Positions 3,381-39,790 of a DNA stretch of 64,000 bases are shown here, one piece after another (the first letter of the stretch is position 1; each line of letters begins with the position of its first letter). The notes beneath the pieces were generated by a model, which was given only the letters and a program-made list of their open reading frames with translations, did not search any database and had not been told where the DNA came from. The position numbers and the translations under genes were made by a program. Origin of the DNA: Mesostigma viride (lineage: Eukaryota > Streptophyta > Mesostigmatophyceae > Mesostigmatales > Mesostigmataceae); assembly GCA_009746045.1 (NCBI GenBank), contig RPFO01000015.1, forward strand, positions 2,443,498 through 2,507,497, in the 5' to 3' direction.

Positions 3381-4560
3381 TTCACCTCTTTCATCTGCAT
3401 GCCCCACTGTCAGAGCAGTGAGCAGTTCTGGAAAGGTGCTACAGCTGGTTTCAGAAGATTATGTCTCTAAACCAACCTTCACATCTATGGTTCCCAAGGT
3501 GTGCAGAGTGTCCCCAGCAGAGGATGCTCAGATCAGTTTTCAGGAGCTTGCTTTGCAGTTGCATTTCCTTTATGGGCATGAAGTGAGTGCAGAGGTGGTG
3601 GCAGCAGCAATAGGGGGGGCAGCACTCAGACGTGCATGCCAGGTGGTCAGATCCCACTGCCAGCATTGTCAGTTCAATGCACCCAAACCCCCTAAGTGGC
3701 ATGTAGCTACCCCACCTAAGAGCAAGGGCAGGGTGGTAGGAGATGTCTTTCATATCAAAGGACAATCTTACTTGGCACTTAAAGATGCATGGTCAAGGTA
3801 CACAACCATTGAACCATTACCTGGAATGGACAAGACACAGTTGCTCAGGGCTCTCTTGATTGCTCAGGCCAGGTACTACCCTGTGGAGGCATTGTTACTG
3901 GATCAGCAGTTCACGTGTCTTGCCAATGAACCAGGGTGTGAGGCTATTGATCTGGCTGGGCTAGAAGATCATGAGAGGCAAGGCATTATTGAAAGGGCCA
4001 TCAGGTCCATTAAAACCCTTGTAGCCAAAGAAGATGGCAATCTGCTGGCTGACAGTGGGTCATATGCTGACAGAGCTCTGTGGTCCACCAGGTTGTGCCA
4101 AGTCCTCAACAGGAGGCCACTCATGAAAACCCCACAAGGGGTGGTCATTACACCAGATGGATTGCATGCAGGCATTTATCCACCTGAGGTACTAGCCCTA
4201 TACAACGCACAGCGAGCACAGACAGCTAGCAGGTTAGCTGTCAAGGATGCAAAGCATCCACGTCCCACCTTCAGAGAAGGGGATCAGGTCCTATTCTACA
4301 AGGAGTCGGGACTAGGCAAGGTGGGTACCTGGCATGGGCCAGCCACCATCCTAAAGTTTAACACCACTGGCAGGACAGTGTTAGTTAAACACAATGACAC
4401 GGGAAAAATTCACAGGTGTTCACCTCACAGGATGAAATTGTATTTTCCAACTGTGTCAGACGTGGCAGAGGAGGAAGAGCTGTTGGCCGACAGCCCTGTA
4501 CAGTTGCCTGGCATCCCAGCGTTGCCCAGTGAGTGGTTGTTTGGAACACCCACTGGTGAG
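3381..4560 (+). CDS. Integrase domain of element A
   Basis: Continues the Gag frame (the open frame ends at 4971). The zinc-binding N-terminus shows H-x4-H in LHFLYGH (about 3565) and C-x2-C in CQHC (about 3660). The catalytic core follows: Asp in GDVFHIKG (about 3741), Asp in LLLDQQFTC (about 3901) and Glu in GIIERAIRS (about 3990). This is the D,D35E pattern of retroviral-type integrases, but the usual copia DNGGEF is replaced by DQQF. The C-terminal part (4260-4450: QVLFYKESG, GTWHGPATIL) resembles the small beta-barrel DNA-binding domain. It would insert the cDNA into the host chromosome. A low-complexity linker to about 4830 leads to the protease. Confidence 0.88.
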
Positions 4561-4834
4561 TGTGAGAGCCACACCCACTGTGACACCCAGGTCACCCTTG
4601 ATGATTGCAGGCAGTCACTGCAGGCTTGGCCCCCTGCAGCAGAGGGTCACATTGGCAAAACAGGTGATCAGCAACCTATCACCTCTTCAAGTGTGAACAT
4701 AGCTCAGCCACTAGCTGCACCTTCCAAACGCAGCCTAGCAGACGCTGTTCGCATTTTACAAGCAGCTCATAGAGCCAAAGCTCAAACTGCTGCAGGATCA
4801 GCTAAGGTGGGGAAGGTTGGGCAGAATGACAATA

Positions 4835-5130
4835 GCCCATTTATGGTTGCAGTGGACACACAAGCCCAGGTCAGCATTATCAGTGCCCTGGCTGTGCCCC
4901 ATTGCCTTTGGAACCTTCACCCTGGCACCATGTGGCTGATTTCTCAGGGCAGTCATCCCTCAAGGTATTAGGTCAGGTCATGTTGACTATACTCGGTATC
5001 CCCACTCCTTTTCAGGTATTGGAAGGTTATAAAGGGAATGCTTTGTTGGGGGATCCTTTTCTCTGTTACCCTGGTGTCTCATCTCCAGTGATAGACTATC
5101 CATCCAGGACATGGGTGGTGTTGATCTGAA
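4835..5130 (+). pseudogene. Aspartic protease (retropepsin-like) of element A, downstream of integrase
   Basis: The active-site motif is VDTQAQVSII, catalytic Asp at 4855-4857, in frame with the integrase. After about 4905 the frame shifts: the remainder (SGQSSLKVLGQ, GNALLGDPFL) is read in the frame of 4902-5129. The ALLG motif is the second hallmark of retropepsins. The canonical DTG/DSG reads DTQ. The order is the point of interest: this protease lies after the integrase, and nothing like a protease lies between the zinc knuckles and the integrase. A single indel breaks it here; elements B and E3 have it unbroken. Confidence 0.75.
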
Positions 5131-6290
5131 TCATTTCAAAATTTCTCTTGAAAAACTTCTTAACACCAACATTGCTTCTGTAAAATTTGCTACACCCAAG
5201 TATGCCCCAGGGCAAGAACCCTGTGTGGCAGACTTGGTTCACAACCAAAAACTTCATCCCAACTCATTTGGATTGGGCAAGCATGATGTGGCTAAAATGT
5301 CTCCTCTTTCTTATGAACAGATAGAGCAAGACTGTCGCACACACATAGGATTCCTAAAATGGGTGGAGGCCTTTAACAAGGCCAGGGAAGAATGGGTAGT
5401 GCCAGATCCTCTTAGTCCTTCTCATACTCCCCTGTCACACCTATTGACAAAAAGCCTGCAGGGTGCAAGCACTTGCGCCTGAAGTTTGTGTGTAAACATA
5501 AGCCAGCAGCAGATGGGTCAGTCATTTTCATGCTAGACCTTGTGTGACAGAGTTCAAGGGCACCACTGATCTGACAGAGGCAGAGTTGTACACGCCAGGC
5601 ATTCAGCAAACATCCCTAAAAATCTTGCTGTCTGTCTTTGTGGGTCATCTCAATGATGGGGATGACTATGTATGTAAGGCTACAGACATTAAAAGGGCTT
5701 TCCTGAAAGGCTCACCTGAGATAGCACAACAAGTGTGGCATGGTCAGGTGTATGTAGTCTCCACTCCCAGAGTTTGGGCAAAACACATCCCTCAGCAGTA
5801 CCTGAAAGCTAACATAGGTGTTGAAGGGCTGCAATCAGCTCCTCGCATTTTCAGGATGTCAGCTCAGGCTGTGTTTGAAAAGCTAGGGGCTAGATATGAT
5901 GACATAGACCCTTGCTTCTTTGTGGTCCCACACCCTCATGGCATTCTCACCTTTGTGTGGCATGGGGATGATCAGCTGATTGCTGGGCCAAGGCGTGCTG
6001 TGGATGATTTTATTCAACAAGTGTCACAGCATTTTGAGATTGGCAAGCAAGTAGAGCTGGGCACCACTGCCATAAAATTTTGTGGCACAATGTTACAACT
6101 CCAGCAGCATCAAAACCAGTGGGTGTGTGCACTTACTCTCCCAATGATTACATGCACAGCTGCTTGGAGGTTTTGCAAACAAAAATCAAACCTGGAGCCT
6201 GTCCTACCATTAGAGGCAAGCTGGGGTGGTTGTGCTCAACGTGTGCACCTCACCTGGCTGTGGTTAGCAGAGTTGATGATGATGTCTTGA
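5131..6290 (+). pseudogene. Reverse transcriptase (copia type) of element A, frameshifted
   Basis: The pre-RT linker is in the frame of 5111-5482. It ends at TGA 5480-5482, exactly where the RT proper begins in another frame (LRLKFVCKHKPAADG, 5473 on). A further frame change at about 5530 leads to RPCVTEFKG and ELYTPG, then the RT palm motif DIKRAFLKGSPE (about 5688) and the active site WHGDDQL (His-Gly-Asp-Asp, 5961-5972). Described copia RTs carry Tyr-x-Asp-Asp, so this residue is unusual. Another frame change near 6080-6160 separates RT from RNase H. It would copy element RNA into cDNA in the particle. Confidence 0.82.
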
Positions 6291-6898
6291 TGCAAGTAGG
6301 TCACAAAGCCATCACCAAAACTCTCCAGGAAGGCCCTCCCCTTATCTTGCACTCCTTGGATCTCCACAAAACCATTCACATCCAAGCTATGATGGATAGT
6401 TCCATGGAGTCCAGGCAGATTACCAAGATGCAGGCAAGGGAGTCAGGCTTGTATTTTGTGCAGAATGATGATGCACCCTTGTCTCTCATTTCATGGTACA
6501 GCCGGTTGCATAGACGCAAGGCTGTCAGCAGCAATGCTGCTGAGTGCAGGGCAGTGGTGTCAGCAGTGCTTCATGCCAGGTACTTGAATCATGTGCTGGT
6601 TTGGTTGCAGATGCAAGCAGGCAGCAATGCTGGGGTGGTGGCACACTTGCTCACTGACAGTCAGTCAGTCCTCAGTTTCCTTGCTAACCCCTATGCTGTC
6701 CACACTGATCTTGACTGGGTGGTCCTGAAACAGGAGTCCACCTACTGGGAGTCCACCCGTCACGTGGAGGACAAACACAACGCTGCTGATGCACTCACTA
6801 AAGTGCCTCAGCAGGCAGCTGAACAATACCAGCTGTTGTACCACTTGATGAACCCCTATGGCAAGCAGGCAACCCTGCCCCATAGGGGGGACGCCTAG
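6160..6898 (+). CDS. RNase H domain of element A
   Basis: Copia-type RNase H with the catalytic series Asp in MMDSSMES (about 6390), Glu in NAAECRA (about 6535), Asp in LTDSQSV (about 6655) and Asp in NAADALTK (about 6785). WYSRLHRRKA lies between the first two, as in other copia elements. It removes the RNA strand during cDNA synthesis. The frame is open to the TAG at 6896-6898, which ends the polyprotein. Confidence 0.85.
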
Positions 6899-7875: not shown

Positions 7876-8417
7876 CCTCAGTCAGCTTGGAGTCAGTCTC
7901 CTAGCTGGGCAGGGTCAGGCTTGAAGTCGCTAGCCTTCAACCTGAAAGGAAAACATAATGGGAGTTAGATGAGATGCTTAGGCTGACACACGGATTTCCG
8001 GCCTGCGCGCCGCGTATTGCCTACCGCGGCTGAGCGGGACACCTCAGTACAGTACGGCAGGGTGTACGGTACTGAGGTGTCATGTGGACCGATGTGCGGT
8101 TAGTGCCAGACTGTGCCTAGACTAGCTCGACCCGCCAGACCCGGGTTATCCGGTTCTGGACGGGCCGAGTGTAGTTGATGCTAGTGACGTGGTCGCATGG
8201 CATTGCAGTGTACAGTTGTCCACTGGTCGTGTGCTGCAGGTAGCACCGCCATAGGCATATAGGCGTAGCACTGGGGAGTGCCACAGCACCCGAGTTTGCC
8301 CAGACGTTCCATTCTGAGCTCTCAGCTTCCATTGCTCTCTCATTGTATTATTGTAATACAATCATCATTCGCTCTCAGCTTTCGTCGTTGTTCGTCGTCC
8401 CTAGTCTCCATCCAACT
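7876..8417 (+). repeat. 3' LTR of element A
   Basis: 8024-8417 matches the 5' LTR at 1-396. Homology with the inverted copy at 22260-22743 extends left to about 7876 (CTCAGTCAGCTTGG), so the full LTR is probably near 540 bp. The left edge is inferred from that copy only; part of 7876-8023 could be internal sequence. Confidence 0.7.
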
Positions 8418-8845: not shown

Positions 8846-9895
8846 TCAGGTTGGGTTGTTATACCCACCTTGGCCCCTTTGCTTACGCCAGCTAGGGCAG
8901 TCCTTACGGATGTGGCCCTGCTGGTGACAGAAATAACATGTGATACGAGGTGTCCCCACCCCAGGTGGTCCCCGCTGGGACCCCACCCTGTTGAAATCAA
9001 ATCTGGGACGCTGAGCCGCTGGCTGCTCCTGGGAAGGACCTCCACGACGCTTGAAGCCACTGAAGCCCTTGGCCTGGAAGCCCCCCCGCTTGGAAGGCCC
9101 TGACCTTGGTGGACCATAACCGTTGGAGGGCTGCCCCCCCCATTGGTTGCCCTTGACCTTGGGAACACTGCCCCCTGTTGCAGCTGCCATATCCACCTTA
9201 TCCTTCTCCTTCTGCTTCTCCCTGGCCTTGTCTGCCTCCTTCTTGCCTCCCACATACTTGCCCCTGAAATAATCCTTGATCTTGGCCACCATAGCAGCCC
9301 AGGTGGTGCATGTATGCATGTGCACCTGCAGGTTATCCAAGGTGACCTCATCCAATCCCAGGCTACCTAGGAAATCATCCATGGCAATCTCATCTGACAC
9401 TACATACCCCTTGCCAGCACAATTGTGCCTGAGCTCCTGAAAATCCTCAAATGCCTGCAGAATCAGACCCTCAGCCTTGAAATCAATGTACTCCTTCTTC
9501 CAAAAGGAGCCATCACTAGCTCTCTTATCATCTAGGAACACCTCAAACTCAGCTATAAAAACCTCCCAGGAATCTCCATCCTCAAACTTGTCATTTACAT
9601 ACTTCTGCACCCTCTTGGGACACTTAAGAAGGTACTGTGACATACACAGCACCTGCAGAGGATTGTTACCATTATATAAGCCCTTATATCCCTTAAGGTG
9701 CCTAATGGTAATATCCTTATCCTTAACAGTCCATTGCTCCTTGAGACTGGGAAGCTGGTTAAGAATAGCAAAGCCCTCCTGGGCCTTGGCTCTGCGGGGC
9801 TGCTCTGCTGCTGCTGGGCGATTAAAATTCTGATTAAAATTCTGACCCCGCAGCATTTGTTCGCCGCGTATCTCGCCGTCTTCCAAACCCTGCAT
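8846..9895 (-). CDS. Gag of E4 (core plus zinc knuckle)
   Basis: 349 aa from ATG 9895 (MQGLEDGEIRG); the frame is open a little upstream but without an earlier ATG. The core (residues about 30-220) has the copia Gag look (LKGYKGLYNG, FIAEFEVFLDDK, TTWAAMVAKIKDYF). It is followed by a Gly/Pro/Arg-rich basic segment and one knuckle CYFCHQQGHIRKDC (CX2CX4HX4C) near the C-terminus. It would package element RNA. The frame is intact. A separate frame (10045-10608) lies upstream and may be an N-terminal part or a distinct leader protein. Confidence 0.75.
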   Translation of the reverse strand: MQGLEDGEIRGEQMLRGQNFNQNFNRPAAAEQPRRAKAQEGFAILNQLPSLKEQWTVKDKDITIRHLKGYKGLYNGNNPLQVLCMSQYLLKCPKRVQKYVNDKFEDGDSWEVFIAEFEVFLDDKRASDGSFWKKEYIDFKAEGLILQAFEDFQELRHNCAGKGYVVSDEIAMDDFLGSLGLDEVTLDNLQVHMHTCTTWAAMVAKIKDYFRGKYVGGKKEADKAREKQKEKDKVDMAAATGGSVPKVKGNQWGGQPSNGYGPPRSGPSKRGGFQAKGFSGFKRRGGPSQEQPAAQRPRFDFNRVGSQRGPPGVGTPRITCYFCHQQGHIRKDCPSWRKQRGQGGYNNPT

Positions 9896-10044
9896 GGTCG
9901 CTGCGAATGCCGATGACAACTGTCGATGCCGATGCCGATGCTGAAGAAAGAATACTGCTGAGGAATTAATAAATTAATCCCTTAAGCTCTGGAACCACGA
10001 AAAAATTTTCCTGAATTAATTCTCTGTTAATTATAACAGAAAAT

Positions 10045-10608: not shown

Positions 10609-10641
10609 ATAATGGAAAAACACCGTAAAAATTGCCGACAC

Positions 10642-11480: not shown

Positions 11481-12904
11481 TGTAACAAGCAAAAATGACT
11501 TTGTTGTTACATCCTTTGTTTTGTGAATGTTTGGCTTTTATTCGAGGACTTTTGGATCAGTATTGAGAAAGTTATGAGGTTTCTAAGACGGCGGTACTTG
11601 GAGCTGGTACTTTGTCAACCGACTGGTAGGAGCCCTCATTGGTCGTGGCCTGATCCACGTGGGGTTATAGTTTGTTGGTCGGTACTATTGAGTCTTAAAT
11701 GCTCCTTTGGGACTTTAGTACTTACTACAGGTTCAGAATCTCATGGAAAGATTCTGCCAGGCTGTGTGTGGTGTTGTAGTTGAACGCCCTTCACCGCTGG
11801 CTAGCACGCCGGCGATGGAGACGGGATTTTTGTTGTTTGGGGAACCGATTGTGGGAGGCTGAGCCCGCAGCCGCCACTGATTGCTATTGAACCCTTGCAG
11901 CTGGCCAGGCCGCAAGGAGCTCAGCGGCGCGGCGCTAACCGATAAGGCATGCTCGAGCCTCTAACCCGAGACTACCGGTAGGCTACCCGATAGTGCATGC
12001 TCGAGCCTCTAACCCGAGACTACCGGCACTCAGCGGATCTGTGCTACCGAGGGCGACGGTTCTCTGACCGTCCCGGCGCGCACTGGCTTCCGTACCTTGC
12101 TTAGGCACCGACTAGCATCTAGACACCAATCTTTGATGCCCACCTGACTAGGCGCCCAGGCCGGCGACTACCGGCCAGCGGATAGATGCCACTCGGGAGC
12201 ACAACTCCCATACTTTCTTTTTAAATAATTATCATAAATTATTTAAACCGTGGGGCAATAGGGTAGCACTGACCCTACGTACGTTCAAGTAGAGAAACAC
12301 GTAACGGCACACTCGCCGTCCCCAAATCCTAAACCCCAAGGAGGGTGCCCTACGCTGGGATCTGAGCACGCCAAAAACACCCGGGCTTTGCTCCCGGCCT
12401 CCTTTTCTACTTGGGTGCAACTGCACCACATGCATCATTATTAGGCACACTGGCCGCCTGTCAGGTCTAGGGAAATGTATTCACAGTCTGTTTTGTGTGA
12501 CTAGGATGGATACGAAGATCTTGTCTAGAATTCCATGATTCTGATTGGTTCTCTTCAGGCTAAGGTTGAAGCAAGTTCGACAAGCACGTCGATATCAAGG
12601 ACGTGGGGTCGCCATTGTTGCTACGTTGGTTTTGATTCATCATGGTATAATAAAGCTTGTCTTTGTTGTCCATTCATAAGAGCCCCTTGGCTATAGACGT
12701 CCTTCAGTTCCACAGAGGTCGTCTATACACAAGCTTGTCTTTGTGTCTACAAGGGGTTGTGATTCCCTAAATCACGTGCTGTGGAATTTCCATCTCAACG
12801 TTGCTCGGATACTTGAAGATCTGTAACTCAAGAAAGCAACCCAGGTAAAAGATCTTTCATATTTGGACTATGGATGATGCTGATGATCATTTTTAGTCGT
12901 TACA
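11481..12904 (+). repeat. Family C LTR carrying a 0.7-kb insertion
   Basis: Homologous in reverse to 46959-46396 plus 44654-44584. It starts TGTAAC and probably ends GTTACA (12899-12904). Shared blocks include CCTCATTGG.CGTGGCCTGATCCACGT and GGTCGCCATTG. The two halves are separated by sequence (about 11766-12490) absent from the other copy. The uninterrupted length is near 0.7 kb. AATAAAGCTT at about 12649 fits a transcript end signal. Confidence 0.75.
11766..12490. mobile_element. Unclassified insertion in the family C LTR
   Basis: About 0.7 kb present here and absent from the family C LTR at 44584-46959. It carries a direct repeat built on GCTCGAGCCTCTAACCCGAG (about 11951 and 12000) and a GC-rich left part. 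No ORF, terminal inverted repeat or clear target duplication is seen. Edges are approximate because the flanking homology is diverged. Confidence 0.5.
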
Positions 12905-15900
12905 GGCGCAGGTTTTTTCAGCTGTGCATGGAGAAAAAAACGTGTCTTAATCCAGGGACCCCCGTCGGTTCATGTCTGCAGCCTAGAAAACTGGAGCGAT
13001 GGAGCCACAACGAACGGGAAATCCGCATTCAAATTCGCCTATGTAGCCCACGGGTCACAAGTGGCCGACAGGTATGTAGATGCAGCCAGCCCCGGGCGTG
13101 TCGCAGACAGTAAGCACTACCGTAGGCCGCGGTGCCGCACCTCGGCGCAGTTTTTTTCAGCTGTGCATGGAGAAAAAAACGTGTCTCAATCCAGGGACCC
13201 CCGTCGGTTCATGTCTGCAGCCTAGAAAACTGGAGCGATGGAGCCACAACGAACGGGAAATCCGCAAATGTTCAAATTCGCCTATGTAGCCCACGGGTCA
13301 CATGCAAGTGGCCGACAGGTAGATGCAGCCAGCCCCGGGCGTGTTGCAGGGAGTAAGCACTACATACCCTAGGCCGCGGAGCCGCACCTCGGCGCAGGTT
13401 TTTTCAGCTCAGTGCATGGAGAAAAAAACGTGTCAGAAACCCCCGTCGGTTCATGTCTGCAGCCTAGACAACTGCACTCTCTCTGAGCGATGGAGCCACA
13501 ACGAACGGGAAATCCGCATTCAAATTCGCCTATGTAGCCCACGGGTCACAAGTGGCCGACAGGTATGTACAGCCAGCCCGGGGCATGTCGCAGACAGTAA
13601 GCACTACCGCAGGCCGCGGTGCCGCACCTCGGCGCAGGTTTTTTCAGCTCAGTGCATGGAGAAAAAAACGTGTCTCAATCCAGGAACGGCCCCCGTTGGT
13701 TCATGTCTGCAGCCTAAAAAACTGGAGCGATGGAGCCACAACGAACGGGAAATCCGCATTCAAATTCGCCTATGTAGCCCACGGGTCACAAGTGGCCGAC
13801 AGGTAGATGCAGCCAGCCCCGGGCGTGTCGCAGACAGTAAGCACTACCGTAGGCCGCGGTGCCGCACCTCGGTGCAGGTTTTTTCAGCTCAGTGCATGGA
13901 GAAAAAAACGTGTCTCAATCCAGGAACCCCCGTTGGTTCATGTCTGCAGCCTAAAAAACTGGAGCGATGGAGCCACAAGGAACGGGAAATCCGCAAATGT
14001 TCAAATTCGCCTATGTAGCCCACGGGTCACAAGTGGCCGACAGGTAGACGCAGCCAGCCCCGGGCGTGTCGCAGACAGTAAGCACTACCGTAGGCCCGGC
14101 GGTGCCGCACCTCGGCGCAGGTTTTTTCAGCTGTGCATGGAGAAAAAAACGTGTCTCAATCCAGGGACCCCCGTCGGTTCATGTCAGCAGCCTAGACAAC
14201 TGGAGCGATGGAGCCGCAACGAACGGGAAATCCGCAAATGTTCAAATTCGCCTATGTAGCCCACGGGTCACAAGTGGCCGAGAGGTATGTAGATGCAGCC
14301 AGCCCCGGGCGTGTCGCAGACACTAAGCACTACCGTAGGCCGCGGAGCCGCACCTCGGCGCAGGTTTTTTCAGCTGTGCATGGAGAAAAAAACGTGTCTT
14401 AATCCAGGAACCCCCGTCGGTTCATGTCTGCAGCCTAGAAAACTGGAGCGATGGAGCCACAACGAACGGGAAATCCGCATTCAAATTCGCCTATGTAGCC
14501 CACGGGTCACAAGTGGCCGACAGGTAGATGCAGCCAGCCCCGGGCGTGTCGCAGACAGTAAGCACTACCGTAGGCCGCGGTGCCGCACCTCGGTGCAGGT
14601 TTTTTCAGCTGTGCATGGAGAAAAAAACGTGTCTCAATCCAGGGACCCCCGTCGGTTCATGTCTGCAGCCTAGAAAACTGGAGCGATGGAGCCACAAGGA
14701 ACGGGAAATCCGCAAATGTTCAAATTCGCCTATGTAGCCCACGGGTCACAAGTGGCCGAGAGGTATGTAGATGCAGCCAGCCCCGGGCGTGTCGCAGACA
14801 CTAAGCACTACCGTAGGCCCGGCGGTGCCGCACCTCGGCGCAGGTTTTTTCAGCTGTGCATGGAGAAAAAAACGTGTCTTAATCCAGGAACCCCCGACGG
14901 TTCATATCTGCAGCCTAGAGAACTGAAGCGATGGAGCCACAACGAACGGGAAATCGGCATTCAAATTCGCCTATGTAGCCCACGGGTCACAAGTGGCCGA
15001 CAGGTAGATGCAGCCAGCCCCGGGCGTGTTGCAGGCAGTAAGCACTACCGTAGGCCGCGGTGCCGCACCTCGGCGCAGGTTTTTTCAGCTGACAGTGCCG
15101 CACCTCAGCGCAGGTTTTTTCAGCTGTGCATGGAGAAAAAAACGTGTCTCAATCCAGGGACCCTCGTCGGTTCATGTCTGCAGCCTAGAAAACTGGAGCG
15201 ATGGAGCCTGGCACAACGAACGGGAAATCCGCATTCAAATTCGCAGGCCTATGTAGCCCACGGGTCACAAGTGGCCGACAGGTATGTAGATGCAGCCAGC
15301 CCCGGGCGTGTCGCAGACAGTAAGCACTACCGTAGGCCGCGGTGCCGCACCTCGGCGCAGGTTTTTTCAGCTGTGCATGGAGAAAAAAACGTGTCTCAAT
15401 CCAGGACCCCCCGTCGATTCATGTCTGCAGCCTAGACAACTGGAGCGATGGAGCCACAACGAACGGGAAATCCGCAAATGTTCAAATTCGCCTATGTAGC
15501 CCACGGGTCACATGCAAGTGGCCGCGACAGGTAGATGCAGCCAGCCCCGGGCGTGTCGCAGACAGTAAGCACTACCGTAGGCCGCGGAGCCGCACCTCGG
15601 CGCAGGTTTTTTCAGCTCAGTGCATGGAGAAAAAAACGTGTCTCAATCCAGGAACCCCCGTTGGTTCATGTCTGCAGCCTAGAAAACTGGAGCGATGGAG
15701 CCAGAACGAACGGGAAATCCGCAAATGTTCAAATTCGCCTATGTAGCCCACGGGTCACAAGTGGCCGACAGGTAGATGCAGCCAGCCCCGGGCGTGTCGC
15801 AGACAGTAAGCACTACCGTAGGCCGCGGTGCCGCACCTCGGCGCAGTTTTTTTCAGCTCAGTGCATGGAGAAAAAAAAGTGTCTCAATCCAGGAACCCCC

Positions 15901-16476
15901 GTTGGTTCATGTCTGCAGCCTAGACAACTGGAGCGATGGAGCCACAACGAACGGGAAATCCGCATTCAAATTCGCCTATGTAGCCCACGGGTCACAAGTG
16001 GCCGACAGGTAGATGCAGCCAGCCCCGGGCGTGTCGCAGACAGTAAGCACTACCGTAGGCCCGGCGGTGCCGCACCTCGGCGCAGGTTTTTTCAGCTCAG
16101 TGCATGGAGAAAAAAACGTGTCTCAATTCAGGAACCCCCGTCGGTTCATGTCTGCAGCCTAGAAAACTGGAGCGATGGAGCCACAAGGAACGGGAAATCC
16201 GCAAATGTTCAAATTTGCCTATGTAGCCCACGGGTCACATGCAAGTGGCCGCGACAGGTAGATGCAGCCAGCCCCGGGCGTGTCGCAGACAGTAAGCACT
16301 ATACCGTAGGCCGCGGTGCCGCACCTCGGCGCAGTTTTTTTCAGCTGTGCATGGAGAAAAAAACGTGTCTCAATCCAGGGACCCCCGTCGGTTCATGTCT
16401 GCAGCCTAGAAAACTGGAGCGATGGAGCCACAACGAACGGGAAATCCGCATTCAAATTCGCCTATGTAGCCCACGG
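12905..16476 (+). repeat. Satellite array, 15 units of about 244 bp
   Basis: Anchor ATGGAGAAAAAA recurs at 12928, 13167, 13416, 13656, 13896, 14137, 14380, 14615, 14860, 15130, 15377, 15624, 15865, 16104 and 16351. Spacing is 235-270 bp. Units differ by small indels (for example CATTCAAATT versus AATGTTCAAATT) and by one 30-bp internal duplication near 15090. Long open frames cross the array, but the reading frame changes from unit to unit, so I do not call it coding. The array is cut at 16476 and resumes at 20526. Confidence 0.95.
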
Positions 16477-17230
16477 TGTTACAAATACAGGTAGTCGGAG
16501 GAAAGTTCCGATCAATATTGCTTGATTACATTTTCATTATCAATATTCCATAGCCAAGTCAAAAGACAAGAAGAGATAGTGAGAAAGTGTAGGGACAACA
16601 CTTTTCACTTCATTTAGCATGCAAGCGCCTGCAACTTTAACCGTTAGATCAAGATCTGACGATCTAGGTGTGGCGGCGCTTATGTGACATAAAGCTCTAC
16701 CCATTGACCACAAGATTCCTACCAGTTTATGGCACTAACTGTGGTCACCATAGAGTCCACATCTGACCACCCATACATGGGCTCTGATCTTGCTCGGTGC
16801 ATGACATCATTCTCATGCGCAATACAAACTTATGGCAGTAGCATATAATTCCATAAGACAAGTCCACATGTGCTTGCACATACAGGCATTGAGACACAAG
16901 TGTCGGCGCCCAACAAATAAATGGCGCGGCGCTATCAGTGATGACAAGCTACAAGTGACGCAACGTTGGCGTACTGGGACAAAGCCACAGTGCCTCCAAG
17001 GCAGCGCCGGAACGTACAAGTCGTGCGCGAAGCGCGGATTCTGCTACATAACATACGGTGACAGCATAAGCAATCCAAACCGTACCGCCGGTGCCAAACC
17101 AGCACCGGTACAACATCTCGTAGCACTTCACAATGATATAGTCCCGACCCAAAAACAATCACAACGGGTCTCGTGAAGTATGATCCGTACAGTATCTCGG
17201 ACCTGAAAAACTCAGCACCAAAGTCAGTCA

Positions 17231-23212: not shown

Positions 23213-24209
23213 ATGGCTCGTAGCCGTGCTGCGGCAAGCGCTGAGACTGACGCCATTGTCCTGACTGGACAGGACAAGAAGGAAATGAACAAATTAAAGC
23301 AGCACGAAGTTGGCAATGCGTTTGCTGCCCAAGCCGCTGCCACCCGGCAGCAAGGACCCGGAGAAGAAGGACTACTGCGACGGCCTGGGGTACTGGTACG
23401 CGAAGACAGTGAGTTTCCTGGACAACGACCACGTTGCTACGTTGCGATTCAGTGGACACGGCTCGTCGGGAATGCCGGCCGTCCGTGATTTGATCCGGAT
23501 TGCCCACGAGAAAAAGATGGAGTGGGCGGACTTTTACAGCCGTTTGAAGGAACTCCTTGTGCCCGAGGGCCTGCTCAAGTCGATCAAAGATATGATGCGG
23601 ATCCTCACTTTTGAGGTGTCGGGCGACCCGGTCCAGGCGACACTGGCATTCGAGAGGATGCTGGAAGACACTACGTTGACTTTTCCAGATGATTTCAGCG
23701 TCGTGCTTTTCCTGGGCAAGGCCCTCGCCAGTGGTGTGATTACTGACAGCAGTATCCAAGGCTTGGCTCCCGTCCTGACAAAGGAAAAGCTAGAAAGCAG
23801 GACTGCCAGCTTTACTGCCATCCGGGAGGCCTTCGCCCTCGGTGGCGCGGCACAGGAATTGGCGGGAAGGGGATCTGCCACCAAGCCCGCGGGAACAGCA
23901 AGCATCAGTGCTGTTTTTGGGGAGGGCGACAGACGCGAGAAGTGCCCGAGGTGCCAGGGCACTGGCCACAACCGTGACAGCTGCAATGCCAACAAGAATT
24001 TTCCTCTGTCGACCAATTAATTGTGTGGCAAATGCCACAAGCCAGGCCACAAGGCCAGGTTTTGCAAGTCCGGCAGGCAGCCGGACAAGAAAAACGATGC
24101 CACTGCCGACGAGGGTAGGGCCGGGCCCATTAGGAGGCCTCGTCGGAGCATGCGCTGGGTTCGTCCCCAGCAGGCGCAGCAGGCGCACCAGGCGCAGCAG
24201 GGAAACTAG
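23213..24209 (+). pseudogene. Gag of element B with one frameshift and one in-frame stop
   Basis: Starts ATG 23213 (MARSRAAASAETDAIV) and shifts frame near 23345. It then continues through a copia Gag core (KDYCDGLGYWYAKTVSFL, WADFYSRLKELLVPEG). Two knuckles follow: CPRCQGTGHNRDSC (about 23942) and CGKCHKPGHKARFC (about 24024), both CX2CX4HX4C. A TAA at 24018-24020 lies in frame between them. The stop could be decay or a read-through point, since the frame after it carries the intact second knuckle to 24209. Confidence 0.78.
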
Positions 24210-24274: not shown

Positions 24275-25700
24275 TTGGCAAATGAAAATCAAGGGGCAGC
24301 ACAAGATTTATCGGACAGTGTACCCGTAACTGATGGTAATGAAAAGCTTGTTTCTATTTACGGAATTGCCTCTCGTCTGCACACATTATTTGGCCATGGC
24401 ACAAATGCTTATAAATTTGCAAATGCACTGGGTGGGGCAGAGCTTTTGGCAGCATGTCGAGATTGCTATGCGCATTGTCCTGTGTGTCAGGCTACTGGGC
24501 CAAAGCTTCCCCGCCACCATGCTAAGCATCCCTCCGCATGCAAAGGGCAGATTGTAGGCGACGTACTGTTCTGGGCGTTTCTCCCTTATTTCATAGCCAT
24601 AGATAGGTATGCTCATAATGTAGCAGTCATCCCGCTGCGGGGTCAGTCAGCGGAAGATTTGGCGGAGGCTATTGACATTCTCTCTGCGTTTTTCTCTCCT
24701 ATTGAGTCACTACAAATGGACAGGCAGTTCGCATGCTTTGAGGGCAAGCCGGGGTTTGAGTACCTCCGGACAGTGGGCCGTCAAGACCATGAAGGGCAAG
24801 GTTTGGTGGAACGTGCTGTGCAGGAATTTAAACAAGCTGCACGGCGGAACGGTGAGGCTGCTCTTGGTTCTTATGCTTCCCGTTTAGTGTGGGCTTTGCA
24901 TATTTCTGCATGCCTAAACCGCCGTGTGCTCCTTTCAGTGCCTTCGCGCAATTGTGTTATCACTGCAGAGGGCTTGCAGCATGGCCACTACCTGCCTGAA
25001 GTAGAGGAGGAATGGGCACAGCATTTGCAGCAAAAGTTTGCCAATCTGGTTCGAAGGGATATGCGTAGGCCGGTTACCGCCTATAGCGTAGGGGACCAGG
25101 TTTGGATTCATGATGAGGGCTCCTTTGGCAAGAGGGGACAATGGGAGGGCCCAGCCACTGTGGAGGCTGTGGACGTGCATGTACGCAAGGCGATTGTGTC
25201 CTTGCAGGGCAAGCAACACCACATTCCCTGGAGCAGACTCAAGCCTTACCTGCCGCACACGAGCGCATGGGAGCGACTTCTCCACTACTACGCGGACGTG
25301 GCGCACTTCGTGCGAGAGCCAGGTGATGTTCCCACCTCTCCCCCTCGTTCTCTGCCTGCCTCTGACCCTATGGATGTCTTTGTGGGGAATAGCGAGGACG
25401 ATGGTGACGTAGATGATGATGGGGACGTGCGGGCTCTAGCGGAGGATGTTCGAGGCGTAATGAGCGAGCCCCCTGCTGACCTGCGCGAGGGTAGTAGGGC
25501 GGGCTTTACTCCTGCCGTTAGCCAGGATCCGGCTGCCGTTAGTCAGCCTAGCCAGGGGCGTGGTGGTTTGCTGAACAAGATTGTGCTAGGGCTGAGGCGC
25601 CGAGACAATACCATGGGGCTTGCTTCCCTTCGCAACCCAACCTGTGCAATGGGCAGTGCACCACCTCAGCTTGACCCGAGCATCGCTGTGATTTCCTCAC
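24275..25700 (+). CDS. Integrase of element B
   Basis: Frame open from near 24245 to 26347. Zinc-binding H-x4-H in LHTLFGH (about 24377) and CPVC (about 24478). Catalytic Asp in IVGDVLFWAF (about 24559), Asp in LQMDRQFAC (about 24716) and Glu in GLVERAVQE (about 24805). The C-terminal barrel region (DQVWIHDEG, GQWEGPATVE) ends near 25250. An acidic, Pro-rich linker (about 25320-25660) leads straight to the protease. No protease-like motif precedes the integrase. Confidence 0.88.
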
Positions 25701-26347
25701 TCTCGGCCACTTGGTCACTTCAGTGTGGGCTTCTCGTAGACACCCAAGCCCAGGTCTCCATTATTGGGGAGTATTGTGTAGATGATGATTGTCCCTTGTT
25801 TCCCTCCCGGTGGACCCAGGTCACTGACTTTGCTAGGTCGGGGTCTTACAAGGTCTTGGGGGAGATCCCACTAGAGATCCTGGGTGTTGAGACGCCTATG
25901 TGTGTGGTGGAGGGATACGAGGGCCCAGCACTTTTGGGGCAGCCATTCTTGTCCCTACCCGGGGTCACAGTTAGTAGCACACAGTTGTCTCGAGCGGGAT
26001 TCGGTTACCTGAGATTAAACAATTTCTCCCTTGATGTAGCGACTAGGGGCCTCTCCTTGCCTATGGTGGCAGCCCTGAAAGGGGTAGAGTACAATGAGTT
26101 GCCTCCTGCCCGTGATCTCATTACCCCTAAGGCCCTTACCCCTGAAAGCTTGGGGCTTAATTTCCATGACTTTGCTAAAGAGAGCCCCGTGTCCTTCTTT
26201 GATGTAGCCAGGCACGTCTCGACTGGGGAGGGTCTAGACAATACCCAAGGTGCCATCTTGGCTGCGGGGGAACGATGGCTAGGGCTGGGGTGTGTGGAGC
26301 CTGTGGACGTTGTACCGAGGGATGGCAGATTGCTTCGCTTTACATAA
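25701..26347 (+). CDS. Aspartic protease and pre-RT linker of element B
   Basis: In frame with the integrase. Active site LLVDTQAQVSII with Asp at 25739-25741. Flap-like middle (YKVLGEIPLEILGVET) and second hallmark PALLGQPFLSLPGV at about 25927. The following segment, ending CVEPVDVVPRDGRLLRFT, aligns with E3 (NCAEPVDVLPEDHQLLS) and corresponds to the stretch before RT in copia Pol. The frame ends at TAA 26345-26347 where the RT frame takes over. Both halves are unbroken here, so B is the best copy for this domain. Confidence 0.85.
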
Positions 26348-27776
26348 GTGGACATTTCAGATGAAGCCCGTCCCGGGCACTGATAGGAAAGTAGAATTTG
26401 CTAGACCTGTAGTGCTAGAGTTTTCTGGATCTTCTGACATGCCCCCTTCGGCCTTGACTGCGCCAGGTTTAAACAAAGATACATGGCGCATGGTAGTGTG
26501 CTTTCATCTAGGGCGCTTGAATAGGGGTATGCCACATGGGTCCGCTGTGCTAGATTTTTCAAAGGCTTACCTCCACGGGGATGCCAATGAAAGTGCTCGG
26601 CTATGGGATGGAACCACACCCCTCTATGTTAGGACACCCAAAATCTGGGAGCCTCTTGTAGGAAAGAAGTTTATGCGGTTGATAAAGGCGGTTGATGGGA
26701 CCGTGGCTGGTCCACGGGCTTGGCGCCTGAGCCTAGAGCGCCTTCTCCTTGACACAGCTCGCATGGTGTACAGTGACTTGGACCCCTCCTTGTTTGTGGG
26801 CGTCTGGAAGGGCGAGCTGGTGTTTGTGTTCGTGCATGCGGATGACTGTGATTGCTTTGGCCCGCGTGAATGGATTGCCTGGTTCCATAGCATTGTGCAT
26901 GCCAGGTACCCTGTGGGCAAGCTTATTTTCCGTGAGCCGGGCAAGGTGGTTCAGTTCATGGGCATGGACACTGTCATGGATCACGATGAGCACGGCAAGT
27001 GGGCGATGTTGCTTCAGCCCAAGGGCAGCTATGTGCAGGATTTGGTTAAGGAGGTGATGAGCAGCAGTGGGCCGCTTCTTGCGTCTGAGTGTGGGACATT
27101 GCGTGGCAAGCTTAATTGGCTGGCCTGCACCACTAGCCCTGATTTGGCTGTCCTTAGCCGACTGCCTGACAATGTACTGTGCCTTATTGACCGTGCGGTG
27201 ATTGTGCAGTACCTCCTGGCCTCACCCGGGTTGATGTTACAAGGTGTAGACTGGGATAAGCCCGTGGAGCTTGTGTCTTATTGCGACAGTTCCCTAGATG
27301 CCCGCGTGCTCACCAAGATGCGTGGTAGGTGCGCTGCTGTCACTACCATTTGCAACGCTGACCAACCCACGATGTCTTCCATCTTTGCATGGTATTCCCG
27401 TTTGCACCGCCGCGTGTATGTGGGATCCGACACCGCTGAGGCGCGCGCATACTGCGAGGCTGCGAGCGAGCTGTCCTACTTCCACGCGCTCATTTGCTGG
27501 ATTCTCGCGGTGGGCGGCACCACTCCGCATCTCCGTCGCGTGATACGCACGGACAGCCAGGCGGTTGTTGATTTCATTGAGAACCCTTATGCCCGCACAC
27601 GGGACTTGGACTTCCTCAGGGTCAAGGAGTTCTCTGATTGTGTCAGTACCCAGCATGTGCCGGGCGAAAGGAACTACTCCGATGCCCTTACTAAACTGTA
27701 TAGCTCAGCTAAGGCACAGTACCCGCTTCTGCGACACACGATGAATAGGCTATCACTGGGTCAGTCTTCGCACTAG
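26345..27776 (+). CDS. Reverse transcriptase and RNase H of element B
   Basis: Open frame overlapping the protease frame (it is open from 26292). RT motifs: WTFQMKPVPG, RPVVLEFSG, DFSKAYLHGD (about 26552) and the active site VHADDCDC (His-Ala-Asp-Asp, 26835-26846). RNase H: Asp in YCDSSLDA (about 27283), Glu in DTAEARA (about 27435), Asp in RTDSQAV (about 27550), Asp in YSDALTK (about 27680). It ends at TAG 27774-27776. This is the longest intact RT-RH frame in the window. Confidence 0.88.
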
Positions 27777-32780: not shown

Positions 32781-32994
32781 GAGCACGCTCGATACCCCTT
32801 CTTTTGCTCAATGCGTCACGCCGAACCGGGCCGTCGTAGAGCCTGACGTCGTTCCTAAAAGCAACGTGACTGCATCCTCTGTCTCATTCCGTGATGTGCT
32901 CACGCAATCCGTTGATGCTGCTCTGGCTCTGTCGCGCCAGGATCACGTGCTTCCTGAGCACGGGTCTACAATGCGTGACCTACTAAGCAATGTA
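32781..32994 (+). CDS. Open frame fragment of unknown origin
   Basis: Open from the breakpoint of G3 to the E3 LTR, reading ...SFRDVLTQSVDAALALSRQD... to RDLLSNV. The composition is protein-like, but no family is recognised and both ends are cut. It may be part of an older gene or element into which E3 inserted. Confidence 0.3.
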
Positions 32995-33648
32995 GTTAGC
33001 ATATTGGGGCACCAATGTGCTAGATGGATGCAGGTTGAGGAGACCTTTCCAACGCCGTGTCAACCGCCTAGAACAGACAAGGGACTAGAAAGATATCTGG
33101 TCCCGAAGTACTGCCGACCGGTGGGCGAGGGCGGTGCACTCTCAGGGCATAGTGGACAGGACACGTGGCAGGCCGTGCCTGCACAGGCTTAGCCTGAACT
33201 CTCACGTGACTGGGACACAGTGTACTGAGGGCTCAACGGTACTGTGGCTAGTAGAAGCCAGTAACCAGCCAGCAGGTCTGCAAGGATGTAAGTCCTTGCA
33301 GGACTGTGGCAGGTCCTGTGCTGTCCTAGACACAGGATAGCCAGAGATTCCTGTATGCTGCCTGCAACGAGGATGCAGGGCAGCGATACGAGGCTCTGGC
33401 AATGTAGCGTTGCCCAGCGTTGCTCATGACCGAGGAACAAGGATGGAACGAGGTTGCATATAGCTCGAGGCTCAACGAGGCAACGAGCGTCTTCACACAC
33501 GAACCTTGGTCGTCACGACGAGTGGCGAGCCTATCGAGGGTCGTAGGCCTGGTGTGAGGATAAAGGTTGCTAGCCAGCAGCCTAGGGTCATTCCAGCCGG
33601 CAAGGACCAGGAGCTCACAAGCTCTGCTGACGAGTTGCTGCGCAAATC
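32995..33648 (+). repeat. 5' LTR of E3
   Basis: 654 bp matching 40728-41386 with about ten substitutions and a few short indels by eye. A related, older fragment at 21883 begins with the same GTTAGCAT, supporting the left edge. Confidence 0.9.
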
Positions 33649-33672
33649 GTACTATTGCTTCCAAGCGCTTTC

Positions 33673-35096: not shown

Positions 35097-36199
35097 ATGA
35101 TGCTGAACGTCAAGCACCTGGTAAGAGACCATGTGTGCCTGGTCTGGTGTTCCTGCAGCTATGTTCCTGCGCCATTAGCACCTGTAGGAGCTGCTGTCAT
35201 TGGCAGTGACCCTCGTGCTTTGCCTGGGACTAGACCTCATATGAGTGCTGTGGCTGTGATGAATGGCCAGAAGCCTCTCAAGCCTCCTGTGGGACAGGAA
35301 GAGCTAGACAAGTGGTTGGAGGATATGGAGCTAGTTTCATGCTCTGTAGATCCCACTGTCAACCTTGTGCAGGTATTCCACACATCCACGACTAATAGGG
35401 ATTCAGTGAGCGTGAGGGACAAGGCTAGGCAAGCTGTCAAGGACAAGCTGACTTGGTCTCAGTTCCTAGAGGGCCTACGTCAGGAGTTTCTGATAAGGTA
35501 CTCAACCTCACTAATCACTATAAGCTCAGCTATGATACCTTTGAGATCAAGGGCACAATAGCTGAGGAGCTGCAGCGGCTCACACGCATCAGGGAGAAGG
35601 GGGCCAAGCATGGCTTCAATCTGACTGATAGAGCAGTGGCAGATTACTTCCTGGATCGCATGGGGCTGAGTGTGGATGGGAGAAATGCAGCTAGGATGTT
35701 TGCTGATCAGACAGATGGGACGTGGCCAGCCTTGCAAAAGGTTATTTTCAATATCCGTCCATCTGACAATGCTGCTTGCAAGGCAATCCAGGTGACTGGT
35801 GCCCCTTCAGCCTCCGCTCATCAGGTCCATGGTGACGCCCCTGGGCAGGGTGCTCAGGGAGAAACCAGACCTAGTAGGCGTCAGAGGGCTAACAGGCGCA
35901 GGCAGAATGGTAACCAGGGTGGCAAGGGCCAGCAGCAGGGATCCAAAGGCAAGGGTCAGCAGCAGGCTGGTGGTCACCAGGGTGGTCAGCAGAACAAGGG
36001 TGGCCAAGGGCAAGGCAAGAGCCAGGGCCAGGGCACCCAGGCCAGTCAGAGCAGCCAGAACCAGGGTGGCCTGAAGAAGGCTGCTGCTGGGAAGGATGAC
36101 AAGTGCTTTGGATGTGGCAGGACGGGTCATTGGCGACGTGACTGCCCAGACCAGGCCAAGTCTGCTGGAGCAGGCTCTGGCCAGGTGGGTAAGCCATGA
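35097..36199 (+). pseudogene. Main Gag of E3, one frameshift
   Basis: The core runs from about 35240 in the first frame (LDKWLEDMELVSCSVD, DKLTWSQFLEGLRQEF). It changes frame near 35490 and continues (YDTFEIKGTIAEELQRL, GTWPALQKVIFNIRPS). A Gln/Gly-rich repeat segment (35880-36070) follows, then one knuckle CFGCGRTGHWRRDC (CX2CX4HX4C, about 36103). It stops at TGA 36197-36199. The pol frame begins with ATG 36206, seven bases later. Confidence 0.75.
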
Positions 36200-36205
36200 C
36201 TTGAG

Positions 36206-37430
36206 ATGTTGTCCCCTGTAAATAGTCAATCACCCCTAGTGGGACGAACAGTTGTACATAGTAATGGGGGTGTCCCTCTTGTGCAGCAGCAAGGGGTTGG
36301 GAATGATGAGGTGCTTCCACTCAATGATTGCAATAACGCTGCTGCAGCAGTGGAATTCCCTGTGCCTGTGGCAGGTGCAGGGTCTCCAGTTGTTGGGGTT
36401 GACTCTGGGAGTCAAGCCGCCAGACTGGAAGGACCTGCAGCTTCTGTGGGAACCGGGGCTGGCTCTGGGAGCCGAGCTACCTTGGAGGAGGTCCCTGGAG
36501 CAAGAGAACAGCAGGTGGGTCGTGCTATCCCAAGCACACAGTCTTTGTCACGTTCCTCTCTGTGCAGCCAGGCTGACAGGGGGTTGAGCTATGCTCAGGC
36601 TGGAAACACTCTACACCATATCTTTGGCCACTCTAAGCAGGCAGAGATGTTTGCTTGGAAGATTGGCAAGGAGCCTTTGCTAGAGGCCTGCAGTGCAGCT
36701 GCTCAGAATTGTGTCTGTCAGGAGAATGCTGTTCGCCTCCCACAGTCCCATGCCAGAGAACCTGCTAGAGAGCGGGGGGATATCCAGGTGGACATCCAAC
36801 ACATCAGGGGCATGTATCTGTTGGTGGGGGTGGATAGGTTTAGCAGATATAGGTTGCTGACCATTCTTCCTGGAATGCAGGAGCATCAGCTGTTGATGGG
36901 TCTCCAGTCTTTGTTGCCAGGCTTTGGGGTGTACACCAAGGTGCAAGCTGACTTGCAGTTTGACTGCTTGATCAAGCTGGCTGACCAGCTTCCTTGTAAG
37001 TTGGTAGTGGTCCCTAGGGAATGCCATGGGCAGCAGGGAGCTGTAGAGAGATCTATACGTGAAGTAAAAACAGTGGTGCTAGCAGCTAGGAGTGTGCCTG
37101 TTGTGGCATCAGCTCTAGAGAAAGCAGCTTGGTGTAAGGGGATTGAGGAGCAGCTTAACCACAGGGTAACCTATTACTATGATGGTGTGGCAGTCTCTCC
37201 CCTGGCATTGCAGTTTGGTATGCTATCACAGGACGTGGTGGCAGCCTGCCTGAAGAAGGCAGACAGGGTGTTTTCCAGATTGAGGCGTAAGGACAAGGGT
37301 TGGAAAATGCTGAGGCCCCAGGTGGGACTGAGGGTCAGGATGTGGAAGGAACCGTCATTACCAGGCAAGCGTGGCAAGTGGCAAGATGGGCAGGTAACCC
37401 ATGTTGAGAAGCTAACCATTCTTGTCTGGT
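36206..37430 (+). CDS. Integrase of E3
   Basis: Begins at ATG 36206 with a 130-residue Gly/Val-rich linker. H-x4-H in LHHIFGH (about 36610); the cysteines read NCVC, closer together than usual. Catalytic Asp in IQVDIQHIRG (about 36790), Asp in VQADLQFDC (about 36945) and Glu in GAVERSIRE (about 37040). It shifts frame near 37420; the C-terminal end (RLSWAHVKERRPTAIWPED) is read from 37429. The linker contains GVDSGSQAA (about 36393), which resembles a protease site by chance; see rejected items. Confidence 0.82.
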
Positions 37431-38397
37431 GGCTTTGGAGAGTAATCCCAAGCACGTGTACAGGCTATCCTGGGCTCACGTCAAGGAGAGAAGGCCAACT
37501 GCAATCTGGCCTGAAGACGGCCCTGATCCTCCCTTGGAGGGAGATGAGCAGGATGAGAGCCAGGCAGCAGATGCTAACCCACCATGCTTGGATTATGGTC
37601 TGTCCTGGATGGATGAGGGTGAGCAGGAGTCTGCTGAGACGTCTGTCACAAGGCCAGAGGTGGCCAGGGCTGCACCACAGTCCAGGGGGCTGCTTATGGC
37701 GGACATCATTCGAGCTCTGCAGAACAGCAAGCGTGATCCCAAGGTATCTAAGCTCACGGGATGGGGGTCATGTGGGGCACCAGCACTAGAAGTGGATACC
37801 AACTCACAGGTGTCCATTCTAAGGGTAGAGGATGCTGCAGGCTTGCAGTGGTCATCCCCTAGCTGCCTAGCTGTGTCTGATTTCTCTGGGAATGTGTCCA
37901 TGAAGATCTTGGGAGAAGTGAGTGTGCCTATCCTGGGGGTGCCCACCACGTTCAGTGTGGTTGAAGGGTATCAGGGGCCTGCCATTCTAGGTCAGAACTT
38001 CTTGTGCTTACCAGGGGTGAGGATATCCTCTGAGGAGCTAGCATTAGAAGGGCAGGGCCGCCTTCCCTTGCAGAGATATCGCTACTCCCAGGGTCTTAGT
38101 GTGGCTGTAAGGGCTGTGAGGGGTCTAGAGGCAGAGGGTCCTGATACAAAGGAGCCCATTGCTGGGGACCTGCTGATCCTCCCTACTACGTTTGACCCAC
38201 GTGAGTTGGGTGTGCAGAGGTACCAGATCCCAGGAACGAGTCCTGTACCTTGGCGCAAGCTAGTGGAGATGATGCAAAGCCCCAAGATGGCTAAGGCATG
38301 GACTCTTGGCTTTGTTGCTTCTGGGCATGAGTGGATAGTTGCCAACTGTGCAGAGCCTGTGGATGTCCTCCCTGAGGATCACCAGCTGCTCAGTTGA
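37429..38397 (+). CDS. Integrase tail, aspartic protease and pre-RT linker of E3
   Basis: Open frame. The protease active site is LEVDTNSQVSIL with Asp at 37795-37797. The middle reads MKILGEVSVPILGVPT and the second hallmark is PAILGQNFLCLPGV (about 37980). The linker that follows ends NCAEPVDVLPEDHQLLS, homologous to B. The frame stops at TGA 38395-38397, overlapping the ATG of the RT frame (TGATG). The protease is again downstream of the integrase. Confidence 0.85.
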   Translation: MALESNPKHVYRLSWAHVKERRPTAIWPEDGPDPPLEGDEQDESQAADANPPCLDYGLSWMDEGEQESAETSVTRPEVARAAPQSRGLLMADIIRALQNSKRDPKVSKLTGWGSCGAPALEVDTNSQVSILRVEDAAGLQWSSPSCLAVSDFSGNVSMKILGEVSVPILGVPTTFSVVEGYQGPAILGQNFLCLPGVRISSEELALEGQGRLPLQRYRYSQGLSVAVRAVRGLEAEGPDTKEPIAGDLLILPTTFDPRELGVQRYQIPGTSPVPWRKLVEMMQSPKMAKAWTLGFVASGHEWIVANCAEPVDVLPEDHQLLS

Positions 38398-39437
38398 TGT
38401 TTGTCCTCAAGCTCAAGGAGGTAGATGGCGTGCAGGTGCCACATGTTAGACCAGTTGTGACTGAGTACCATGGCACTGGACAGTTAGCAGATGAGGAGCT
38501 TTACACACCAGGGATGCTGCATGATACATGGAGGATTTTGTTGTGCATTTATTTGTCTTTTCTGCAGAAGGGGATACCCTATAGCTCTGTGTTGGTAGAT
38601 TTCAAGAGGGCTTTTCTTAAGGGTGATCAGCAGGAAGCACAGGATACTTGGCGCACAATACCCCCTTTCTTTGTTAAGGTGCCTGCAGTGTGGAGGGCAG
38701 AGCTGAAGACGAGGTATTTGAGGATTCTCAAAGGCGTGGAAGGCCTTAGATCGAGTCCCATCATCTGGAGGAAGAGCTTGGAGAAGTACCTCAGGTCTGT
38801 CTGTGGTCTCTCAGTCTCTCCAGTTGATCCTTGTCTGTTTCAGGGTAGCTATGAGGGGCTGCCAGCGTTTGCCTCCCTGCATGGTGATGATCTGCATCTC
38901 CTGGGCCATCCCACTTGGCAAGAGTTGACTCTGGCCAGGATCCAGAAACGGTTTGAACTGGGTAAGATCCAGTACATGGTTGAGAATGAGCCCATGGTGT
39001 TTTGTGGAATGCAGGCGACCTTGGTCCATCAGCAGGGTACATGGTCCATCCAGCTGGAGGGTGGTAAGGATTATCCTCAGCAGATCATAGATGCCTTGCA
39101 GGAGCCCATCACCCAGGCCAGATGTGCAACAATACGAGGTATGTTGGCATGGCTGGCCAGCATTTGTGCTCCTGACCTGTTGGTACTGAGTCGGTTGACC
39201 GATTCCCAACTGGTTGAGGTGGGTGCTGAGAGAGTGGTAGAGGCTGTTCGCATGTCTCCCCCTCTCATGCTGGGTCCTTTGGATTTGTACAGGCCTTTTG
39301 ACATGATGCTCTATGTGGACAGTTCTATGGATAGTAGGAAGGTCACAGAGGTCAGGGGCCGTGCAGCAGCATTAATATCCCTGGTGCAGGAACAGTCCTC
39401 TCTGGTCTGCTGGTACAGTCGGTTGCAAACAGGGTAA
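38396..39437 (+). CDS. Reverse transcriptase and start of RNase H of E3
   Basis: Starts at or near the ATG of TGATG (MFVLKLKEVDG). RT motifs: RPVVTEYHGTG, ELYTPGML, DFKRAFLKGD (about 38600) and the active site LHGDDLHL (His-Gly-Asp-Asp, 38880-38891). The first RNase H motif YVDSSMDS is at about 39315. The frame ends prematurely at 39437 (WYSRLQTG then stop) through a 1-nt indel near 39428. RNase H resumes in another frame. Confidence 0.85.
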
Positions 39438-39790
39438 CTCCCAGCAGTGACATTGCTGAGTGCAGGGCAATCTGTGAAGGGCTTCATACTGCTCTTTACT
39501 TGAGGGAGCTATTTTACCAGCTATGTCAAGTGGCTTCCTGTCGGTTGCAGATGCACACACTGGTAAGAACTGACAGCATGGGCATGGTGCAGTTTGTGCA
39601 CAGGCAGCTGGCCAGGAGCAGGGACCTTGATTATTTGTTGCTCAAGGAAATGTCTTGCTTAGCTAACATTGAACATGTGGCTGGCGTGGACAACCCTGCA
39701 GATGCTCTCACCAAGCTGGAGGAGAAGGCTGAGCTGCAATACCCTTTGCTTCGTGGGCTCATGGCCTCCAAGGGGGGAGGGCCAGAGTAG
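39430..39790 (+). pseudogene. RNase H remainder of E3 (frameshifted)
   Basis: Continues the RNase H: Glu in DIAECRA (about 39456), Asp in RTDSMGM (about 39568) and the final Asp in NPADALTK (about 39690). It stops at TAG 39788-39790. Only the upstream indel breaks it. Confidence 0.8.

Follow-up and report, generated by a model that had tools for sequence, protein, structure and literature searches.

Retrotransposon copies at the locus

We analysed a stretch of 64,000 nucleotides of the streptophyte alga Mesostigma viride (assembly GCA_009746045.1, contig RPFO01000015.1, forward-strand positions 2,443,498 to 2,507,497; hereafter the window), which contains three retrotransposon copies, A, B and E3. 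In each of them the order on the DNA is Gag zinc knuckle, integrase (IN) finger, the D, D and E residues of IN, a putative protease (PR) domain with a DT(Q/N) motif, reverse transcriptase (RT) and RNase H (RH). The initial annotation had placed the DT(Q/N) motifs at 4855 (A), 25739 (B) and 37795 (E3), behind IN and before RT; these positions and the order are borne out by the motif positions and by matches to the Pfam RT model RVT_2, which, weak or better, lie 3' of the DT(Q/N) domain in all three copies. The parts, with long terminal repeats (LTRs) where found, are as follows.

Element A
1..396, + strand: 5' LTR, 99.5% identical to 8024-8417; its start possibly lies before the window
1138..3558, + strand: Gag part of an open frame, from translation and motif positions; zinc knuckle 3193-3234
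3559..4480 (end approximate), + strand: integrase; HHCC finger 3559-3672; D 3736-3753, D 3892-3912, E 3982-3999; D,D(29)E
4846..4971, + strand: start of the retropepsin-like domain (VDTQAQVSII); frame lost before the stop at 4971, domain complete in relative L034
5502..6182, + strand: reverse transcriptase piece; RVT_2 E 3e-7, slightly under the curated cut-off
6155..6898, + strand: RT end and RNase H piece
8024..8417, + strand: 3' LTR, pair of 1..396

Element B
23298..24020, + strand: Gag, related to the Gag of family B'; zinc knuckle 23943-23984
24377..25270 (end approximate), + strand: integrase; finger 24377-24490; D, D and E within 24554-24571, 24713-24730 and 24800-24817
25664..26053, + strand: retropepsin-like domain; LLVDTQAQ 25730-25753, ALLGQPFL 25928-25951; core unbroken
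26283..27776, + strand: RT and RNase H frame

Element E3
32991..33640, + strand: 5' LTR, 97.6% identical to 40724-41378
35429..36199, + strand: Gag; zinc knuckle 36104-36145; closed by a stop that lies in the Pol reading frame
36611..37414 (end approximate), + strand: integrase; HHCC finger and D, D and E residues within 36611-37054; D,D(31)E
37720..38109, + strand: retropepsin-like domain; LEVDTNSQ 37786-37809, AILGQNFL 37981-38004; core unbroken
38376..39437, + strand: reverse transcriptase; RVT_2 E 0.0086, under the curated cut-off
39338..39790, + strand: RNase H piece, from translation; joined to RT without a break in relative L044
40724..41378, + strand: 3' LTR, pair of 32991..33640

Two LTRs enclose an internal region in A and E3, as they do in three copies of the related family B'. 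As stated initially, two of the three protease domains are unbroken (B and E3), and the frame of A is lost about 17 codons past the DT(Q/N) motif. The statement that the elements also differ in their LTRs could not be upheld for B: an LTR pair was looked for in the window and not found, and an LTR-like piece upstream, at 21882-22103, resembles the E3 LTR (81%). This piece and an inverted A-LTR piece at 22287-22591 (88%) are probably nested insertions. Frameshifts occur somewhere in all three window copies; the window by itself therefore shows the order of the domains and not complete polyproteins.

Unbroken copies in the genome

Naturally unbroken frames with IN before PR were found in four families of the genome (A, B', E3 and P0019); all counts given here are among the matches listed in the 439.9-Mb assembly, where short contigs may repeat one locus. 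In family A, 4 of 89 matches lie in frames of at least 1,500 amino acids (aa), and the relative L034 has a single IN-PR-RT-RH frame down to its stop. Frames of 1,194 aa hold 9 of the 73 matches of B and B' pooled, and the B' copy L017 reads through from IN to RNase H without a stop. The 122 E3 matches are 100% identical across the protease query; 22 of them lie in frames of 1,195-1,205 aa, and one frame of relative L044 comprises IN, PR, RT and most of RNase H, as far as the fetched stretch reaches. The P0019 family has 13 of its 71 matches in 1,249-aa frames; at its locus L045 a single frame, open as far as the stretch goes, contains both IN and PR, and the database protein P0019 covers PR-RT-RH. 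The integrase of L045 apparently has D in the position of the last catalytic E. IN lies upstream of RT in A, B and E3 of the window and in the relatives L034 and L044.

Gag is joined to Pol in different ways: by one fused frame in A; by an overlap in B', where Gag (343 aa) is followed by Pol in the -1 frame (L031, 3561-3603); and across an in-frame stop in E3 (window 36197-36199), which in L044 (190-192) is TGA followed by C. Three B' copies of about 5.7 kb each have LTRs of about 0.5 kb that are 98.2, 100 and 100% identical, a purine tract upstream of the 3' LTR, and 5-bp target duplications that are all distinct (TGCAG, TCCTG and ACCAA). Their LTR ends (L031-L033) resemble AGTTG...CAACT, not the usual TG...CA. 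The lineage is abundant in M. viride and has apparently been active recently; in this genome, according to the accessible part of PMC6947507, LTR elements are the biggest repeat class and their activity is long-term and increasing.

In an RT tree of 11 rows, six families of the new group form one clade (100/99) and three canonical copia families of the same genome another (100/100); the tree is midpoint-rooted, carries a long-branch warning in its output, and has an E3 row that lacks most of the RNase H part. P0015 and P0020 stand outside the trees and alignments, and P0014 is a database gene model that starts near PR. The order could be thought an artefact of assembly, nested insertion or decay, since the window is crowded with nested, broken elements and B has no LTR pair within it. 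Such an artefact is exceedingly improbable, as four families have unbroken frames on many contigs, the target duplications are distinct and the families share one RT clade; an assembly artefact was rejected on the first two of these grounds. The EukProt record P0013 (jgi/Mesvir1) also matches the B' 1,194-aa frame, with 100% identity over 97% of the length, and the same assembly is its possible source. The earlier view that the order is no one-off rearrangement thus stands.

No protease upstream of the integrase

A retropepsin upstream of IN, set beforehand as a finding that would count against the proposed order, was not detected. The gap from the zinc knuckle to the IN finger measures merely about 80-155 residues. 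Its Pol-frame segments (A 108 aa, E3 137 aa, B 81 aa and B' 60 aa) had a Pfam match at E<=10 in none of four cases, and the same scan found the canonical copia protease in 3/3 control elements of the genome. The Gag frames of A, B, B' and E3 gave no protease match at E<=1. Of B, the scan covered all but about 37 codons where the Gag frame passes into the Pol frame; the upstream part of P0019 was read by eye. One candidate, the VDSGSQ string of E3 (36395-36415), was rejected as an upstream retropepsin: no LG motif or flap follows it, and only about 70 residues separate it from the IN finger. Compared with the PDB at E<=10, this stretch had one match, which is not a protease.

The protease domain

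Across six families the active-site triad of the domain is DT(Q/N/M), with Q in four, N in one and M in one, and with D and T invariant. An (I/L)LG motif is present in five of the six, and P0019 has LIG. Six further regions, all of the B' family, were left out of the protease alignment; alignment A1 has no row for A, whose window copy is broken, and alignment A3 uses the unbroken relative L034 instead. The predicted model of the domain has a retropepsin fold, in agreement with the initial assignment, and its closest solved structure is Ddi1 (the retroviral-protease-like domain of Ddi1/Ddi2). B and B' share 83% identity in this domain, where the ratio of nonsynonymous to synonymous substitution rates (dN/dS, NG86) is 0.07, against 0.08 in RT, 0.09 in RNase H, 0.10 in IN, 0.11 in the PR-RT stretch, 0.16 in Gag and 0.44 in the linker before PR, ratios that are rough because dS exceeds 1 in several domains. 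The domain is under purifying selection, with a constraint equal to that of RT. We regard it as a putative protease of the retropepsin type, whose catalysis is unproven since its triad is DT(Q/N/M) instead of DTG.

This triad also invites the explanation that the domain is a pseudoprotease, a retropepsin fold that no longer cuts and is kept for structure, dimerising Pol or linking IN and RT, with processing absent or done by a host protease. None of the six families has the DT/SG motif, which the accessible part of PMC2642776 gives as canonical for the retropepsin clan. However, D and T are invariant and the domain is constrained like RT between B and B'. Moreover, of three canonical copia families examined, L041 and L042 have the triad DSA, not DSG (the third has DTG), and they too are multi-copy; other multi-copy elements of the genome can thus lack glycine at the third position. 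We consider a pseudoprotease possible but not likely.

Among 150 canonical RVT_2 matches listed in the genome, the three read (L041-L043) have the order Gag-PR-IN-RT-RH, and their proteases match Pol_BBD (E 5.5e-11 to 6.9e-17) and carry an LLS motif, which agrees with the ILS that PMC2642776 notes for copia. An internal rearrangement, in which such a protease moved behind IN or IN moved ahead of the protease, would be the simplest route from this order, and the copia protease and retropepsins are both aspartic protease folds. Against it, the new group has LG where the canonical families have LLS, and profile-profile comparison of the two proteases gave 0.5%, no match. Four rows gave no Pol_BBD match at E<=10, and neither the unbroken frame of A nor P0019 gave one at E<=1. 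In the PDB, the profile of the new group matches retropepsins, whereas the canonical profile has 0 retropepsins among 6 matches. Such a rearrangement is accordingly rather improbable; to judge by its LG motif, its retropepsin matches in the PDB and the lack of a profile-profile match, the domain is probably something other than a copia protease that changed place. On the basis of shallow profiles, uptake of a retropepsin of ordinary type is likelier than relocation.

Reverse transcriptase and integrase relationships

RT of family A matches RVT_2 with 37.4 bits, above the cut-off of 31.6, and no RT of the group matches RVT_1 at E<=1. The RT profile of the group matches canonical copia RT at 98.8% and P0016/P0017, two long RVT_2 polyproteins from ENA, at 99.1%. 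The IN profile behaves differently, with 98.2% to P0016/P0017 and 1.2% to canonical copia IN; canonical IN reached 56.2% to P0016/P0017. IN carries an HHCC finger and the D, D and E residues; its D-to-E spacings, 29 residues (A, B) and 31 (E3), fall short of the textbook value of 35 for integrases. Of ten PDB matches of the IN profile at E<=1, the top five are retroviral integrases (E 0.016 to 0.31), and RecR and ribosomal proteins make up the remainder. The C-terminus of IN in A, B and B' contains a GK(R/V)G(Q/T)W.GPATV stretch (B about 25100-25250; L017, L034), which is reminiscent of the GPF/Y module in the integrases of retroviruses and gypsy elements; the GPA part is missing from E3, and the stretch is similar in P0016, P0017 and L045.

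When about 5.8 billion proteins were searched with a profile, the candidates scored included two records from Mesostigma and two RVT_2 proteins that are distant; two single-protein searches listed two Mesostigma records each. These searches need shared five-residue words, and the profile search and one single-protein search scored only candidates sharing most words; other algae may hold relatives. In viral contigs no relative was found (the pattern matched 3 stretches, of which 0 were confirmed).

A lineage with protease behind integrase

Taken together, A, B and E3 very probably belong to an LTR retrotransposon lineage of M. viride with a copia-type RT and RNase H, in which Gag is followed by IN-PR-RT-RH. 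The computed basis of this reading is the domain order, the unbroken multi-copy frames, the predicted fold, purifying selection, and the B' insertions with their 5-bp duplications.

Several observations weigh against it. Apart from the lack of DT/SG, which may mean that catalysis was lost, no single-sequence match of the domain to any Pfam protease family was obtained. A first structure prediction was unusable (pLDDT 36.5), and in a second only two of five models were good (73.0 and 70.6 versus 53.6, 44.9 and 41.8). PDB matches of the protease profile have weak E-values (best 0.016) and include many near-identical lentiviral proteases, and the two protease profiles hold 6 and 3 sequences, with no gypsy or Ddi1 positive control. 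RVT_2, below its cut-off, is the only Pfam match in B' and P0014, and P0019 has no Pfam match. The evidence consists of sequence and prediction; transposition, cleavage and particles were not observed.

For this lineage we propose the following hypothetical sequence of steps, in which (i) Gag and Gag-Pol would assemble into particles; (ii) the retropepsin would dimerise and cleave the IN/PR and PR/RT borders of the polyprotein; and (iii) RT and IN would then make and insert a DNA copy. With PR behind IN, PR would be made only together with IN, unlike in canonical copia. As regards its origin, the ancestral copia protease (Pol_BBD, LLS type) may have been lost, and an LG-type retropepsin of retroviral, gypsy or Ddi1-like kind may have been taken up between IN and RT. 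We tentatively extend this to a broader scenario, quite possible though short of probable, in which a deep lineage related to copia exchanged its protease for a foreign one, placed between IN and RT and drawn from gypsy, retroviral or host Ddi1-like sources, whose active site works without the DTG glycine. The lineage would then represent a third Pol architecture of LTR retroelements beside copia and gypsy, one that moved recently in a basal streptophyte.

Domain order is one criterion for classifying LTR retroelements. That PR follows IN in a multi-copy lineage suggests that a protease next to Gag is dispensable and raises the question of how the polyprotein is processed. The lineage also supplies a natural family of retropepsins in which the active-site glycine is absent.

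Other features of the window

A tandem array with units of about 240 bp occupies 12829-16582, with a 114-nt core in 13 copies, and an array with a 9-base period begins at 51568. On the minus strand, the frame at 8846-9970 encodes a CCHC zinc knuckle (Pfam E 0.00024) and is possibly another Gag.

Comparison with known systems

The initial annotation knew of no described group with this order, and none was found in the literature searched; Repbase and most subscription papers lie outside it, so an earlier description is possible. The Pseudoviridae profile of the International Committee on Taxonomy of Viruses (PMC8515867) has no group with PR after IN, nor do the accessible parts of PMC12440569 and PMC2774666. 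The word 'copia' is absent from the main text of both Mesostigma genome papers (one being PMC6947507). The accessible part of PMC6317226, which gives the Ty1/copia order as GAG-PROT-INT-RT-RH, describes a large plant survey that discarded every element with domains in 'unexpected order' as likely mispredicted; lineages of this kind may thus be filtered out elsewhere.

Ty3/gypsy elements (Metaviridae) have IN after RNase H and an RVT_1-type RT. In the new group RNase H closes the frames of A and B', and IN stands before RT. A known exception among gypsy elements is the Gmr1 group, whose IN has a copia-like position (PMC2774666, accessible part). Gmr1 is nevertheless gypsy, whereas RT here matches RVT_2 and not RVT_1. 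In Gmr1 the protease stands first. Ddi1/Ddi2, the top solved-structure match, is a host protein outside any retroelement, and the active site of Ddi1 is DSG. P0016 and P0017 have related IN and RT; by eye they show no retropepsin motif between these domains, and they have unusual N-terminal regions.

The canonical copia families L041-L043 share with the new group the host, the multi-copy state and a copia RT (RVT_2 151-178 bits), but have the order Gag-PR-IN-RT-RH and a Pol_BBD protease. With Ty1/copia (Pseudoviridae) as a whole, the lineage shares LTRs, a CCHC Gag, IN before RT, an RVT_2-type RT and RNase H in last place. It differs in its D,D(29-31)E integrase, which does not match the canonical copia IN profile of the same genome, and in a protease that stands behind IN and is of the LG type, without a Pol_BBD match.

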